Virus record (IMG/VR): IMGVR_UViG_3300035182_002586
Location: 62,001-126,000 of that record
Reading direction: 5' to 3' (one strand)
DNA: 64,000 nt
Source: a virus
The notes beneath the pieces were generated by a model. It saw only the letters and a program-made list of their open reading frames with translations, was not told where the DNA came from and did no database searches. This document shows positions 43,765 through 61,830 of the stretch, piece after piece; position 1 is the stretch's first letter, and each line of letters starts with the position of its first letter. The position numbers and the translations under genes are program-made.

Positions 43765-44105
43765 GCGAGAAGAAGACCAAGGAACCCGGCGAAGACATCC
43801 AGAACCGTGGCGTCAGCACGTGGCGCTACAAGCGGGAACCCGAGGAGCTGCGCTTCGCCAAGGCATGGGATCACCAGTGCACTGTGGGCCGAACCCTCGA
43901 CCACCTGCTCGATCAGCGGGAGGTCCGGACCGGGCACCCGCCGTACGCCAACGACCGCGACGTCACCGTTGCCGCCACTGTCATCCAGTGGCTCGGTTCG
44001 AACGTCGGTCAGAGCTTCCTCGCCGACCTCGGGTACGTCCGGCCCGGCTCCTGCGAGTGGGAAGAGATCCTCCTCCAGCGTGGCTACGTGAAGAAGGATT
44101 GGTAG
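43761..44105 (+). CDS. Small unknown protein
   Basis: 114 residues, ATGA overlap with the previous gene. Charged N-terminus, helical core. Ends 12 nt before the 32-bp inverted repeat, which may terminate this operon. Confidence 0.55.
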   Translation: MSEKKTKEPGEDIQNRGVSTWRYKREPEELRFAKAWDHQCTVGRTLDHLLDQREVRTGHPPYANDRDVTVAATVIQWLGSNVGQSFLADLGYVRPGSCEWEEILLQRGYVKKDW

Positions 44106-44117
44106 GTCCTCCACCCC

Positions 44118-44183
44118 ATAGCTCAGCGGTCCGAATCATGGTCAAGATTCAAATCTTGACCATGATTCGGACCGCTGAGCTAT
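44118..44183. repeat. Perfect 32-bp inverted repeat with 2-nt loop
   Basis: Arms 44118-44149 and 44152-44183 are exact reverse complements, separated by CA. The outer ends read ATAGCTCAGCGGT, which resembles a tRNA D-arm. There is no T-run. It could be a strong terminator, a processing signal or a product of template switching. Confidence 0.9.
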
Positions 44184-44200
44184 TGCCATCGGCTCGTTGT

Positions 44201-44206
44201 GGTGTA
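44201..44206 (+). promoter_or_regulatory. GGTGTA element with long leader before the first vWA gene
   Basis: 182 nt before ATG 44389. The 284-nt intergenic stretch also holds three GGGTTTGG copies (44246, 44281, 44319), spaced 35 and 38 nt; I see no gene in it. Confidence 0.45.
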
Positions 44207-44388
44207 TAGGAAGGGGGACACTACACGTGGACCGCGCTCCCTCGGGGGTTTGGGTCCTCGTGACGGCTGGCCGCACCTTCGGGTTTGGGTTGGCCGCGGA
44301 CGATCGCTAAGGCGCCGTGGGTTTGGAAGCCAGTCCGGGCTTCGCACCAGCGGTAGGACCGACCCGAAACGTTTCACGGAGGACCCCC

Positions 44389-46107
44389 ATGAAGGTCGAA
44401 GCACGTCTCACGTATGGACAGATCCGTCACGACCAGCCCAAGGACGCCCACCTCGTCCTCTCCCTGACCGCGCCCCCGCTCGCCGAAGAGACCAAGCGCC
44501 CGCCGATCTGCGTGGTCGCAGCCATCGACGTGTCGCCCTCGATGGAGGGCCCGAAGCTCGCCTACGCGAAGCAGTCGGCCATCAAGATGGTCGACCACCT
44601 CCAGCCCGGGGACTACTTCGGGCTCGTGGACTTCGCGCAGAGCGCGAGGCTCGTGATCAAGCCGCAGAAGGTGACGACCGCGTACAAGGACGAAGCGAAG
44701 CGGCAGATCGGCGGGCTCAAGGTCCGGGGCGCCACGAACATCGCGGACGCTCTTCTCGTCTCCCTCGACGCGGCGAACCGAATGGACCTCGGGGCCGAGG
44801 TCATCACCCGCTGCATCCTCTTCACCGACGGGGACGCCAACACCGGGGTCGCCATCACGCCGAAGGCCATCATCGAGCTGCTCTCGAAGAACCTCGGGAT
44901 CGCGACCGTCAGCGCCTTCGGGTACGGCGAAGACGTGAAACAGGAGCTTCTCGCGGACATCGCGAAGGTGGGCAAGGCGAACTACGCCTTCGTCAAGAAC
45001 CCGGACGACGCCCTCAGCGCCTTCGGTAAGGAACTCGGCGGACTGGTCTCCACGTGGGCGACGGGCATCACGGTCGAACTCGCGCCCTCGGCGGACGAGC
45101 ACAGCTTCCGGGCCATCGTCTCCGACGTGGAGGCCGAGGAGGACGTGGCCGGGCACATGACGATCAAGATCCCGGACCTCCTGGCGGAGGAGACGCGGCA
45201 CATCGTCCTCGGGGTGAACCTCGCCCCGCAGAAGGCCGTGGGCCCGCGTGCCGTCAACGTCTTCGAGGCGAAGATCGCCTACGACGTGATCGGAACGGAC
45301 GGGCGCAAGGAGCGCAAGACCATCGAAGCCAAGGCGAAGGTCCAGTTCGTCAAGGCGGGGGACGAGCAGAAGACCCCCACGAAGACGGTCGACGAGATCG
45401 TCGCGCAGGCGCAGATCGTCCGTGCACAGATCGAGGCCGAGCAGGCGGCACAGCAGGGCGACTTCAAGACGGCCGGGGCGGTCTTCCAGAAGACGTCCAA
45501 GAGCCTCCAGGACCGCGGGCACGCGGACCTCGGGAGCGTCGTCAGTCACCTCCACGGGATGTACGCCGACTCGAACTCGTACCGCACCACGTCCGGCAAC
45601 CGCGTCGGCATGCGCACCGCGATGACTCGCGCCGTGGGGGCGTCCGGGCTCGACAGGGACGACGAGGCCCTGCTCAGCTCGGCGCGCTACAACATGTCGA
45701 ACTCGTCGCAGACCTCGATGGTCTCCAGCTTCACCGGGGACACGCCCCCGCCTCCGGCAATCCACGGCGGGACCGCCCTGGCTCCCGTGGCGACCCTCAT
45801 CGCCGCTCCCTCGTGGGTCGGGGGTGTGGCTCCTGCGCAGCCCTCCGCCGGGTGGGTCCAGCCTGCGGGCGGGGTCAGCATCCAGGACCTCCAGAACGCG
45901 ATGGGCGTCGTTCCGTTCAACGGGATGCCGCCGCACCGTCCCGGGTACACGGTCCCCCGCTCCGCCGACGCGCAGCAGCTCCAGGAAGCCGCAGCCGAGG
46001 CGCTGCGGAGGATCGACGCCGACAAGAAAGCCAAGGAAGAGAAGCCGGCCCCGTCGTCGAAGGGTCGCAAGCCCCTCAAGCAGACGAAGAGCCCGACTCG
46101 CTGGTAA
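44389..46107 (+). CDS. von Willebrand A domain protein
   Basis: 572 residues from ATG 44389 (GGAGGA six bases upstream). MIDAS metal site: D47-V-S-P-S51, Thr in R-G-A-T-N, and Asp in F-T-D-G-D. A beta domain (about 225-320), a helical part and a Pro/Ala-rich disordered end with basic tail follow. vWA domains bind protein partners through a metal ion. A second vWA gene lies at 50661. Ends in TAA, rare here. Confidence 0.85.
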   Translation: MKVEARLTYGQIRHDQPKDAHLVLSLTAPPLAEETKRPPICVVAAIDVSPSMEGPKLAYAKQSAIKMVDHLQPGDYFGLVDFAQSARLVIKPQKVTTAYKDEAKRQIGGLKVRGATNIADALLVSLDAANRMDLGAEVITRCILFTDGDANTGVAITPKAIIELLSKNLGIATVSAFGYGEDVKQELLADIAKVGKANYAFVKNPDDALSAFGKELGGLVSTWATGITVELAPSADEHSFRAIVSDVEAEEDVAGHMTIKIPDLLAEETRHIVLGVNLAPQKAVGPRAVNVFEAKIAYDVIGTDGRKERKTIEAKAKVQFVKAGDEQKTPTKTVDEIVAQAQIVRAQIEAEQAAQQGDFKTAGAVFQKTSKSLQDRGHADLGSVVSHLHGMYADSNSYRTTSGNRVGMRTAMTRAVGASGLDRDDEALLSSARYNMSNSSQTSMVSSFTGDTPPPPAIHGGTALAPVATLIAAPSWVGGVAPAQPSAGWVQPAGGVSIQDLQNAMGVVPFNGMPPHRPGYTVPRSADAQQLQEAAAEALRRIDADKKAKEEKPAPSSKGRKPLKQTKSPTRW

Positions 46108-46124
46108 CACCTGCACCCACCTCT

Positions 46125-46155
46125 GGCCCGTGCTCTCCGGTGTAGAGCACGGGCC
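46125..46155 (+). promoter_or_regulatory. GGTGTA element in the loop of a 12-bp inverted repeat
   Basis: GGCCCGTGCTCT and AGAGCACGGGCC pair perfectly around CCGGTGT; the hexamer is at 46139-46144. The right arm ends directly before ATG 46156. It looks like an operator enclosing the promoter. Confidence 0.6.
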
Positions 46156-46770
46156 ATGGGATACCCTCTCGAAGACGTAGGCGAACGACGCATCCGGGGC
46201 TTGCAGGTCGAGCACGAGATCGCGCTGCGGTTCCGCATGAAGGACTTCGGCGTGATCCTCCCGCCGACGCATCTCCGAGCCAAGACGGAGAGCCGCGAGC
46301 CCTTCGAGTTCGAGATCGACCTGGAGGTCTACCTCGATGGTGTGAACGGGCTCACGGACCCGTCAAAGCGTCGTGTCATCGAGGTGAAGGGGAAGTCAGG
46401 CGCGAAGGACGTGTTCACGACCGTGGACACGTGGCCCCACGAGAATGTGGCGCTCTACAACGTCAACAAGAAGACGCCCCCCTACGCGGTCGTCCTGTAC
46501 AGCACCCACACGAAGCACGCGCTCGTCGTCGTCGCGGGGGATTCCCCCTGGTCGAAGCACTCGATCCACGACAAGAAGCGCAACGCCACCTACGACGTGT
46601 GGACGGCGGAGAACTCCGCCCTGATGACGTTCGACTACTTCCTGGATCGGCTGCGGCGCGAGCTGGCGGATCAGATCCCGCCGCAGAGGATCATCGAGGC
46701 CCCGCCCGTCAGCCGCTACGTGCCGCAGGAACTCTCGCCGGAAGACGAAGAGGCGCTGCTGACGATCTGA
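46156..46770 (+). CDS. PD-(D/E)xK-type nuclease-like protein
   Basis: 204 residues. D55 in F-E-I-D-L-E-V and E76-V-K78 in R-R-V-I-E-V-K-G-K fit the PD-(D/E)xK core; the beta strands continue as A-V-V-L-Y-S. Similar phage proteins process DNA or act as resolvases, but no subfamily is clear. Confidence 0.6.
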   Translation: MGYPLEDVGERRIRGLQVEHEIALRFRMKDFGVILPPTHLRAKTESREPFEFEIDLEVYLDGVNGLTDPSKRRVIEVKGKSGAKDVFTTVDTWPHENVALYNVNKKTPPYAVVLYSTHTKHALVVVAGDSPWSKHSIHDKKRNATYDVWTAENSALMTFDYFLDRLRRELADQIPPQRIIEAPPVSRYVPQELSPEDEEALLTI

Positions 46771-50660: not shown

Positions 50661-51530
50661 ATGTCGAACGCAACCAGCTACAAGGTGGCCGAGTCACTGT
50701 ACCTCGTCCGCCAGGAAGTCGCGAAGGGGAACCAGGTCGCGAAGCCGGTCGAGATCCCGACCAACCACATCCTGGAGATCGACTGCTCAGGGAGCATGTC
50801 ATGGGATCTCCCCAAGATCCGCGAGCAGGTCAAGAAGAAGCTGGTGAAGCTGCTCAAGGAGGGGGACACCCTCTCCATCGTCTGGTTCAGCGGGCGTGGA
50901 CAGTGCGGGGTTCTCCTGGAAGGTGAGCCGGTCGCGACGCTGGCGGACCTCAACAACGTGAACGCTGCGGTCGATCGCTGGCTCAAGCCGGTCGGCATGA
51001 CGGGCTTCAAGGAGCCGCTGGAGCTGCTCCCGGGCCTGATCGAGCGTCTCGCGAAGAAGTACCCCAAGAACGTCAACTCGCTGATGTTCCTCTCGGACGG
51101 CTGCGACAACCAGTGGTCGCGCCCCGACGTGCTCAAGGCGATGGAGAAGGCGGCCGGCGGGCTCTCAGCCACCACGGTCGTCGAGTACGGCTACTACGCG
51201 GATCGTCCACTGCTCACGGCGATGGCCGAGCGCGCGGGTGGGAGCCTCATCCACGCGGCGGGGTTCGACAAGTTCGAGCCCATCCTCGAAGCCTCGCTCA
51301 AGAAACAGGTCGTCGGCGGCAAGCGCGTCGAGATCGACGTGAAGGGTGACGTCATCGGCGGCTTCGTCTGGATGGAGGACAACGGCGACCTCGTGACCTA
51401 CGGGATCGCGGACGGCAAGGCGCACGTCGCCGAGCAGACGCAGGCGGTGTGGTACCTCTCGCCGACTCCTATGGGGAAGGTGGAGGGGAACCTGAGCCAG
51501 TTGGCGGAACAGGCGTCGAAGGCGGCTTGA
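50661..51530 (+). CDS. von Willebrand A domain protein
   Basis: 289 residues. MIDAS D41-C-S43-G-S45, Thr in G-M-T-G-F, Asp in F-L-S-D-G-C-D. After the vWA fold, a beta domain of about 80 residues. It is shorter than the vWA protein at 44389 and shares no tail with it. Partner unknown; in other systems vWA proteins pair with AAA ATPases, and a small ATPase lies at 42595. Confidence 0.83.
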   Translation: MSNATSYKVAESLYLVRQEVAKGNQVAKPVEIPTNHILEIDCSGSMSWDLPKIREQVKKKLVKLLKEGDTLSIVWFSGRGQCGVLLEGEPVATLADLNNVNAAVDRWLKPVGMTGFKEPLELLPGLIERLAKKYPKNVNSLMFLSDGCDNQWSRPDVLKAMEKAAGGLSATTVVEYGYYADRPLLTAMAERAGGSLIHAAGFDKFEPILEASLKKQVVGGKRVEIDVKGDVIGGFVWMEDNGDLVTYGIADGKAHVAEQTQAVWYLSPTPMGKVEGNLSQLAEQASKAA

Positions 51531-52074: not shown

Positions 52075-52080
52075 GGTGTA
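52075..52080 (+). promoter_or_regulatory. GGTGTA element of 52109
   Basis: 28 nt before ATG 52109, followed by TAAGAG. Confidence 0.5.
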
Positions 52081-52108
52081 TAAGAGATTTAGGAAAGCAA
52101 AGGTTCCC

Positions 52109-53596
52109 ATGCCCTCGAACGACCCCGTTTCCGCTGCTTACGCTGCTGTCTCGCTTTTCAGCGTTCGTGCGAAGCCCGAAGTGGTTCTCCCTCTGCTTGG
52201 TGCGTTGGGGGATAAGGCTCTCCTGGAGCGTTTCGGAGGGCTTTTCGGCAAGCAGAAGTACTCGGATTTCATGGCGGAGACGAAAGCCGCGTCGTTCGAC
52301 CCGAAGCTCCGTCTCATCAAGGGGTACGATCCGAACGCCCTGCCTCGGGACGACGCGTTCACCGTCCTCGACATGCTCCGCCTGCTCGCGTCCGACGAGG
52401 ACAACAAGGTCCTCCTCGACCACGAAGCGTTCAAGTACAGCCGCATCTCACGCGGGCGCGTCGACGCGTTCACCGTCCTCACGGCGGACGAGCAGGCGGA
52501 GGTCGAGCGCCTCACCGAGGAGCTGACCAAGGCCAAGAAGGATGCCAAGAAGGTCGCCGAGCTGAGCGCGAAGATCGCGGCCATCTCCAACAAGCCTGCG
52601 CCGCTCAAGTTCGAGGCGGACCCGGCGCCCGACGGCTACTCGGTCTCCAACCTCACGTACAACGAGGAGCACCCGAACGTCAGCCTGCTCGTCCGCAAGA
52701 CCGGTACGGTCGACATCTCAGGCCGTCTCCCGGCGGAGATCACCGGCGTCCCGGCCAAGTTCCCGACGTTCATCTTCCGCAACTACGCAGTGGTGAAGGA
52801 TGGGCTCGTCAACGTCGAGGTCCTCCCGACCAAGCTCTCAGCGGCGACGCTCGCGAAGCTCTTCGAGCTGCACAAGGCGGGGAAGTTCTCCGACGAGGTG
52901 GTGAAGTCGGACGGCAACGTCGTCCTCCTCAACTTCAAGTCGCTGCCGGTCATCAACCGCACGATGGTGAAGGCGACGTCGGCGAAGGCCCTCTTCGAGA
53001 ATGAGTGGGCGCTCACGCGCATCCAGGCCGAGCAGAAGGTCTACAAGTCGTTCGCCAAGGAGAAGTTCGGGACCAAGAAGTCCGCGGGCTTCGAGGAGAC
53101 GTACGGTAAGGCGGCGGCCGACTGGCTCAAGGAGCAGGGCTTCACCGACTACTCGGGCTTCTCGCCGAAGAGTGTCCAGGCCGAGTCGACCGACGTGTAC
53201 GTCGCCAAGGAGCTGTCGATCGTGATCAAGGGCTTCTCAGCGATCCCGAGCCTCAACGACTTCAAGAAGCAGGCGGCGAAGGGGAAGTTCACCCCGTCGG
53301 CGCAGCTCATGAAGGACGCGGCCGATGCCGTCGAGAAGTTCCTCGCTTCCGACGACTACAAGAACGGCGGCGACCCGGCGTTCGAGAAGTGGCTCAAGGA
53401 CAAGGACAAGGCGCTCGACAAGACGCGCCGCGCCCTCATCGCCAACAAGGCGCAGCAGATCTTCTGCGTGGTAGTAGGTCAGACGTGGCCGGTGGAGTTC
53501 GCGTCAATCGACGAAACGCAGTTGAAGATCACCACTCCGGAGGGTAACGTCCTGGAGTGCGAAGTGAAGATGCGAGATCGCGAGATCAAGATCTAA
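52109..53596 (+). CDS. Large Lys-rich protein of unknown function
   Basis: 495 residues from ATG 52109. Helical N-terminus, a short coiled coil (about 128-160), then a mixed alpha/beta body ending in a small beta domain (V-G-Q-T-W-P-V-E-F ... L-K-I-T-T-P-E-G). Very regular GC-rich codon use suggests good expression. No motif or family recognised. Ends in TAA. Confidence 0.65.
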   Translation: MPSNDPVSAAYAAVSLFSVRAKPEVVLPLLGALGDKALLERFGGLFGKQKYSDFMAETKAASFDPKLRLIKGYDPNALPRDDAFTVLDMLRLLASDEDNKVLLDHEAFKYSRISRGRVDAFTVLTADEQAEVERLTEELTKAKKDAKKVAELSAKIAAISNKPAPLKFEADPAPDGYSVSNLTYNEEHPNVSLLVRKTGTVDISGRLPAEITGVPAKFPTFIFRNYAVVKDGLVNVEVLPTKLSAATLAKLFELHKAGKFSDEVVKSDGNVVLLNFKSLPVINRTMVKATSAKALFENEWALTRIQAEQKVYKSFAKEKFGTKKSAGFEETYGKAAADWLKEQGFTDYSGFSPKSVQAESTDVYVAKELSIVIKGFSAIPSLNDFKKQAAKGKFTPSAQLMKDAADAVEKFLASDDYKNGGDPAFEKWLKDKDKALDKTRRALIANKAQQIFCVVVGQTWPVEFASIDETQLKITTPEGNVLECEVKMRDREIKI

Positions 53597-61253: not shown

Positions 61254-61327
61254 GCTCCCGTGGCCGAGTGGTTCAGGCGGGCGACTTTAAATCGCCGTCA
61301 ACGTGGGTTCGAGTCCCACCGGGGGCG
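61254..61327 (+). tRNA. tRNA with anticodon TTA (ochre-suppressor type), Tyr-like
   Basis: 74 nt without encoded CCA. Acceptor GCTCCCG/CGGGGGC (one G-T pair), TG, D-arm GCC/GGC with GAGTGG loop, anticodon stem GGCGA/TCGCC with loop CTTTAAA, short variable loop, T-arm GTGGG/CCCAC with TTCGAGT. U33 is followed by TTA, which reads UAA and by wobble possibly UAG. The loop equals the bacterial tRNA-Tyr loop with G34 changed to T. The amino acid is inferred, not known. Confidence 0.85.
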
Positions 61328-61830
61328 CTCCTCTTCAAGTGGTTGCGGACAGATGATTCGGCTACCCCAAGCTGTCTGACTACTTCACTCTTTGAGGTCT
61401 TTGCAATCAAGTCCAGAAGCTCCTCCATCGGAGGCCATGCGGCACGCTTAGCTCTAGGCTTTCGGTGCCCACACGAACGACACTGCACACTGGACTTGGC
61501 GATCGTAGTCCCGCACCGACAGGTCTTGTGTGTGGCCTTCGCGATGCTCCGCCCACAGAACGTTGCGGTCTGTGAGTCGCAGTTAGGACACAGAAACCTC
61601 AAGTTTTCTAGTCTGTGATCACGATTCACACCGTTGATATGGTCCAGCCGAAGCACGAGAGGTTTTCCTCCCCACTCGGGCCCAAGCTGACAGCCAACAC
61701 AGTGGGATGTGTCCAGGGCCAGGCGCGCGATAGCGTTGCGCACGTAGGCTGCCCCTCCACCAGAAGCAGAGGGTCGACCTAGAGCACGAAGAATTGCAGT
61801 GACACTAGCGTGCTCTCGCACAAGCACCAC
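61273..61830 (-). CDS. HNH endonuclease running antisense into the tRNA
   Basis: 185 residues from GTG 61830 (weak start). C-V-G-C, R-L-D-H-I-N-G and N-L-R-F-L-C-P-N-C form the HNH core, followed by C-R-C ... C-R-S-C and a helix-turn-helix (V-V-R-Q-L-G-V-A-E-S-S-V-R-N-H-L). The last 18 residues are the antisense of the tRNA, so the natural end was probably replaced on insertion next to the tRNA. Confidence 0.78.
   Translation of the reverse strand: MVLVREHASVTAILRALGRPSASGGGAAYVRNAIARLALDTSHCVGCQLGPEWGGKPLVLRLDHINGVNRDHRLENLRFLCPNCDSQTATFCGRSIAKATHKTCRCGTTIAKSSVQCRSCGHRKPRAKRAAWPPMEELLDLIAKTSKSEVVRQLGVAESSVRNHLKRSAPGGTRTHVDGDLKSPA

Follow-up and report, generated by a model that had tools for sequence, protein, structure and literature searches.

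The window analysed in this work is a stretch of 64,000 nucleotides corresponding to positions 62001-126000 of a 528,957-nt virus record, about 529 kb of a huge phage. Among its genes is one encoding a VWA-domain protein, which is preceded by a leader region and a promoter-like sequence and, further upstream, by a long palindrome and a small ORF (Table 1). The product of the small ORF matched no Pfam, PHROG or PDB entry, and weak matches to it were found in 2 of 13 relatives. The palindrome starts 12 nt past the stop codon of this ORF, i.e. at a gene end, and its last base is shared with the promoter-like TTGCCA, which thus adjoins the right arm. A consensus promoter scan did not report positions 44183-44210; we read them as a putative promoter because of their likeness to the consensus and because a GGTGTA-like sequence was seen by eye at the corresponding place in several relatives. 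With a second, shorter hairpin directly past its 3' end, the VWA gene of the window has a hairpin on each side where some relatives have tRNA genes. Single-sequence scans of viral contigs with the flanking proteins and a tblastn search of phages with the VWA protein gave no matches, and comparison of the locus or leader DNA with named phages gave nothing beyond short weak matches. Our literature search returned no paper on the palindrome or the neighbouring leader, and we claim no wider absence. Elsewhere in the window, two separate ORFs (50661-51530 and 52076-53596) match residues 16-255 and 261-736, respectively, of phrog_2426, and could be either a split gene or the parts of a gene that is fused elsewhere.

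Table 1. Coordinates (window numbering) of the palindrome and of the genes and signals around it
Feature	Position	Strand	Basis or remark
Upstream ORF, 114 aa	43761-44105	+	GC by codon position 0.65/0.43/0.86
Palindrome, left arm	44118-44149	+	32 nt
Palindrome, loop CA	44150-44151	+	2 nt, asymmetric centre
Palindrome, right arm	44152-44183	+	32 nt
Promoter-like sequence: TTGCCA (44183-44188), 16-nt spacer, TATAGG (44205-44210)	44183-44210	+	sequence
Leader hairpin 1, internal motif CCGCGC/TTTGG	44225-44261	+	read from sequence
Leader hairpin 2, compensatory changes in its outer stem	44264-44296	+	comparative alignment
Possible pseudoknot, GGAC (44298-44301) with GTCC (44333-44336)	44298-44336	+	29/32 cells paired
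Leader hairpin 3, same internal motif with its strands in reverse order	44320-44348	+	7/8 pairs changed on both sides
VWA-domain protein, 572 aa	44389-46107	+	PF00092, E 2.8e-15; orthologues in relatives
Perfect 13-bp hairpin directly 3' of the VWA gene	46124-46156	+	perfect-hairpin scan

An earlier note on this DNA had described the palindrome as a perfect 32-bp inverted repeat with a 2-nt loop, and this description is exact, the arms being 100% complementary. Five 64-kb sequences simulated with a first-order Markov model had longest perfect arms of 10-11 bp, as against 32 bp here. The next-longest perfect hairpin has 15-bp arms in the window (loop of at most 12 nt) and 18-bp arms in the 318 kb of the phage sampled (loops of at most 10 nt). 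The arms have a G+C content of 15/32 in surroundings that are higher (62-63%). When positions 44100-44200 were folded as RNA, the free energy was -65.7 kcal/mol compared to a mean of -26.0 for shuffled sequences (z -11.3; equalled by 0/200 shuffles), so that the stable hairpin of an intrinsic terminator is present. The minimum-free-energy stem consists of 31 Watson-Crick pairs with zero G-U pairs and zero bulges, whereas gene-3'-end stems of at least 10 pairs contain 257 G-U among 1,879 pairs, a comparison that favours a DNA-level process by construction, since the palindrome was picked for its perfection.

The palindrome occurs once in the whole virus record and is therefore no REP or MITE-like repeat, which would be present in several copies per genome. 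Exact copies of its parts were absent from the viral contig and genome contig collections searched, and a plasmid search with these parts gave one 18-nt match within a protein gene (E 4). Models of miRNA precursors do match the palindrome, with E values down to 1.4e-10 yet below the gathering scores, and a miRNA reading was rejected because any long perfect hairpin suits such models. Strong palindrome instability in E. coli starts at roughly 100-150 bp or more, and the idea that a 66-nt palindrome should be unstable in most hosts was overstated.

Length sets the palindrome apart from the other hairpins of the phage; kind and place do not. Our sample was 318 kb of phage sequence, made up of the window and further stretches, in which we called genes from codon-position GC (GC3) and searched for perfect hairpins (minimum arm 10 bp, maximum loop 10 nt); the palindrome itself is included in the counts. 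The zone within 60 nt past a stop codon covers 12,795 of 318,000 bases (4%) and holds 13 of the 42 perfect hairpins, that is 10.2 per 10 kb after stops, the corresponding densities being 0.6 within genes and 2.9 in the remaining gaps, and all four hairpins with arms of at least 15 bp lie in this zone. When arms of at least 9 bp were counted in the first 60 nt of each gap (a cut that takes in only part of the palindrome), they were present at 14/193 gene 3' ends, 4/203 gene 5' ends and 0/396 shuffled sequences. The same trend was seen in 17 related loci, where 6 of 39 hairpins are found after stops in a zone of 12,220 of 336,847 bases. The longest perfect hairpin in those loci is 16 bp, and stretches of other huge phages have perfect arms of at most 20 bp (in LR745208.1) or at most 16 bp (in the rest). 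The palindrome belongs to a class of hairpins at gene ends and exceeds all its other members in length.

T-rich tails are rare in the after-stop hairpins (2/13 with at least 5 T in 8). Downstream of the palindrome stem, 2 of 8 bases are T on the plus strand and 1 of 8 on the minus strand, i.e. a T-tract is missing on both strands, and the palindrome was not among the consensus terminators reported. The suggestion of an operon terminator thus holds if the term is taken broadly, for any hairpin at a gene end, given its position and the class found after stops; a strict intrinsic terminator is unsupported because of the missing T-tract. Of all hairpins sampled, the one closest to a canonical terminator is a separate 18-bp perfect hairpin with a TTTT tail, located 11 nt past a stop codon (L034, 1169-1209).

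Comparison with related phages, which the earlier note had asked for, placed the palindrome in a single lineage. Three of 13 whole records contain an orthologue of the VWA protein (gene start 44389), and a profile scan gave 7 loci (three from the same records, two near-identical to each other); the 17 related loci mentioned above were reached only via a second VWA protein (gene 50661-51530). The palindrome is missing at the same locus in 7/7 relatives, in which the longest perfect arms over the upstream 400 nt measure 5-9 bp, and it is therefore lineage-specific and dispensable for the VWA unit. What is retained is the leader: the 200 nt before the VWA ATG resemble window positions 44189-44388 in all orthologue loci and at one further contig end (L092), and the leader (about 44225-44348, within a conserved stretch at 44189-44391) is common to eight distinct huge phages, ahead of the VWA gene.

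For the leader, a structure of two hairpins and a possible pseudoknot was written down from the sequences and evaluated on the eight distinct leaders (alignment A3). Paired cells amounted to 92.8% versus 81.6% after shuffling, pairs changed on both sides to 11 versus 4.2, and cells with changes on both sides to 22 versus 5.5, with 0/500 shuffles reaching the observed value in each of the three counts. The covariation score was 0.419 versus 0.185 for shuffled alignments (0/500 reach) and at most 0.126 for slid structures, the slid control being somewhat favourable to the leader because the structure came from these very sequences. Hairpin 1 was poorly aligned in alignment A2 and was left out of the covariation count; it carries, as does hairpin 3, the repeated internal motif CCGCG/UUUGG. 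The pseudoknot helix showed no compensatory change in alignment A3, and its departure in one leader (L087) is suspected to be a misalignment. When the seven other leaders were used to build a model with an automatic structure, to which the window was unseen, its top match was at window positions 44259-44348 (43.9 bits, E 2.3e-9). A model of all eight leaders (training set of 9 records) gave 9 strong matches among 24 records, all of them training members or a near-duplicate, and no further copy better than E 0.009 in those records. Energy folding of the leader alone gave no signal (z 0.77), so that the structural support is comparative only. No Rfam family was matched at the window region or on the leaders of seven relatives. 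Judged from the covarying sequences, the leader is a candidate new family of structured RNA, alike to Rfam structured RNAs in its covarying helices and unlike them in matching no family.

We propose that the palindrome, probably brought to perfection by template switching, is a lineage-specific RNA hairpin that closes the upstream message at its gene end and insulates the unit that follows; we hold this explanation to be slightly favoured overall. Transcription of the upstream gene would continue through the palindrome and place it at the 3' end of the message, so that an RNA stem of 31-32 bp would form 12 nt past the stop codon. Such a stem may mark the 3' end of the message and protect it by blocking 3'-5' decay, and may also help transcription to pause or end. 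Transcription and decay of the upstream unit could in this way be kept apart from those of the unit made up of leader RNA and VWA gene, the promoter-like sequence of which abuts the right arm. A barrier at the 3' end (pausing or termination, followed by a stop to trimming) is preferred to a textbook terminator because the class is mostly without T-tracts. A shorter ancestral hairpin may have been lengthened to perfection by template switching, which is suggested by the flawless and G-U-free pairing. Against the proposal stand the absence of the palindrome from relatives, the maximum of 16 bp in the 17 related loci, and a stem that, at 32 bp, exceeds what termination calls for.

Both elements of the proposal have precedents. 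In E. coli, RNA 3' ends can carry hairpins that lack a U-tract, which have been interpreted as REP elements or as the product of Rho-dependent termination followed by trimming up to a stabilising hairpin (PMC13289151). The palindrome is alike in lying shortly past a stop codon without a U-tract and differs in its perfect 32-bp stem and single copy, and here the 3' end itself is a prediction. Perfect pairing free of G-U points to a process acting on DNA, and the known one is template switching at imperfect palindromes, through which quasipalindromes become more perfect (PMC7202029). The arms of the palindrome are likewise completed to full complementarity, although it is known in the perfect form alone, with no imperfect ancestor seen. 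With intrinsic (Rho-independent) terminators it shares the gene-end position and the stable RNA hairpin, and it differs in the missing T-tract on both strands and the far longer stem.

Two alternatives come next, each of which we consider rather unlikely. The palindrome may be a recent accident of template switching, functionless and tolerated in an intergenic gap. The flawless arms devoid of G-U pairs, the single copy, the intergenic location and the absence from relatives are as such an accident would leave them; its location is not, since the palindrome sits where the gene-end hairpins of this phage cluster and where all four of the longest hairpins of the sample lie. With a similarly low probability, the palindrome may be a lineage-specific stand-in for the tRNA genes that punctuate the unit in related huge phages, the undescribed structured RNA of the unit working with, or regulating, the VWA protein.

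The VWA gene of relatives does lie among tRNA genes. In one relative (L086), genes for tRNA-Pro(GGG) and tRNA-Ser(GGA) are directly upstream, the latter ending about 25 nt before the leader; in another (L089), about 0.7 kb separate a tRNA-Pro gene from the leader downstream of it. A tRNA-Ser gene starts less than 50 nt past the VWA stop codon in 3 of 6 relatives (L086, L088 and L089), and L084, L086 and L088 have tmRNA genes that precede the leader by about 1-3 kb. The locus might accordingly once have held a tRNA gene as in the relatives, with fold-back copying at that place giving rise to the palindrome; we regard this as improbable, and it is kept as a rival because of these flanking tRNA genes. 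Two parts of the palindrome arm, TAGCTCAGC and TGGTCAAGA, are both present in the D-arm of the L086 tRNA-Pro, and tRNA-Ser(GGA) is missing among the 54 tRNAs that ARAGORN detected in the phage (the window plus 54 kb at 136-190 kb of the record). Against a remnant, an ARAGORN tRNA is immediately upstream of the VWA unit in only 1/6 relatives, and the arm parts were not found in the genome and viral collections searched. The best local alignment of the palindrome to the tRNAs of the phage itself was equalled by 11/300 shuffled palindromes, and that to the tRNAs of relatives by 167/500 (28 tRNA entries, three loci being counted twice).

The outer arm had been said to look like a tRNA D-arm, and a resemblance is indeed seen. 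The D-arm-like TAGCTCAG-N1-3-GGT occurs in the 318 kb only in the palindrome, once per strand, and is present in 0/54 of the phage tRNAs; as about 0.5 matches are expected by chance (our own arithmetic), the motif alone is weak. The palindrome showed neither an ARAGORN cloverleaf nor an Rfam tRNA up to E 5, in a record that has 44 RF00005 matches over the cut-off. A tRNA gene or remnant was rejected as the main reading on the ARAGORN, Rfam and shuffled-alignment results. The related suggestion of template switching at a tRNA remnant survives in its first half, as switching fits the flawless arms; its second half is supported in position by the tRNA genes that flank the unit in some relatives and is opposed by the weak tRNA alignments and the lack of an Rfam tRNA. 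Some further observations concern the tRNA genes of this phage. In the 54 kb at 136-190 kb of the record (L032-L034) there are 53 tRNA genes; many different anticodons are represented, and tRNA-Ser(GGA) is missing. A tRNA at 61254-61328 of the window (Rfam tRNA, 55 bits) has the anticodon TTA, would read the stop codon UAA and is a possible suppressor tRNA. Three GGTTCGAATC-type T-arm sequences, at 675, 1161 and 1854 (+) of L033, lie within 1.2 kb outside called tRNAs and could be tRNA genes that were missed or have decayed.

That the palindrome is a site of RNase III processing, at which the upstream RNA is separated from the VWA RNA, is doubtful indeed. RNase III substrates are typically roughly 20 bp, and a long perfect duplex such as the 32-bp stem is a good substrate in general, but the other hairpins of the class are, at 10-18 bp, below that typical length. 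The phage record has no match to the RNase III family PF14622, so that a host enzyme would be needed, and with the promoter-like sequence lying downstream of the palindrome, a joint transcript of the upstream and VWA genes is conjectural.

That the palindrome acts as DNA, in telomere resolution, in recombination or as a large operator beside a promoter, is very improbable. In size and symmetry the palindrome is like protelomerase targets, and its right arm adjoins the promoter-like sequence. With the telRL sites of telomere phages it shares a long palindrome in a phage genome and differs in its asymmetric 2-nt centre; it is, in addition, present in a single copy. No match to PF16684 (protelomerase), PF00589 (tyrosine recombinase), Y1 transposase or reverse transcriptase families was found in the record, although divergent enzymes could escape such searches, and no protelomerase, tyrosine recombinase or other resolvase gene was found among the neighbours searched; the resolution site proposed in the earlier note is thus not borne out. 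Least probable of all is an assembly or amplification artefact: the palindrome comes from a single metagenome record, but the inverted repeat does not extend past 32 nt, the sequences flanking it to the left and right are unrelated and the ORFs are intact, and a template-switch chimera of amplification would usually invert long flanks.

Read as a gene-end hairpin, the palindrome is an extreme case of a way in which messages of huge phages may end without U-tracts, and it is a test case for how far hairpin extension by template switching can reach in a phage. The leader RNA is more novel than the palindrome, and the larger gain lies there: shared by eight phages and not in Rfam, it would be a new phage RNA family that is directly testable.
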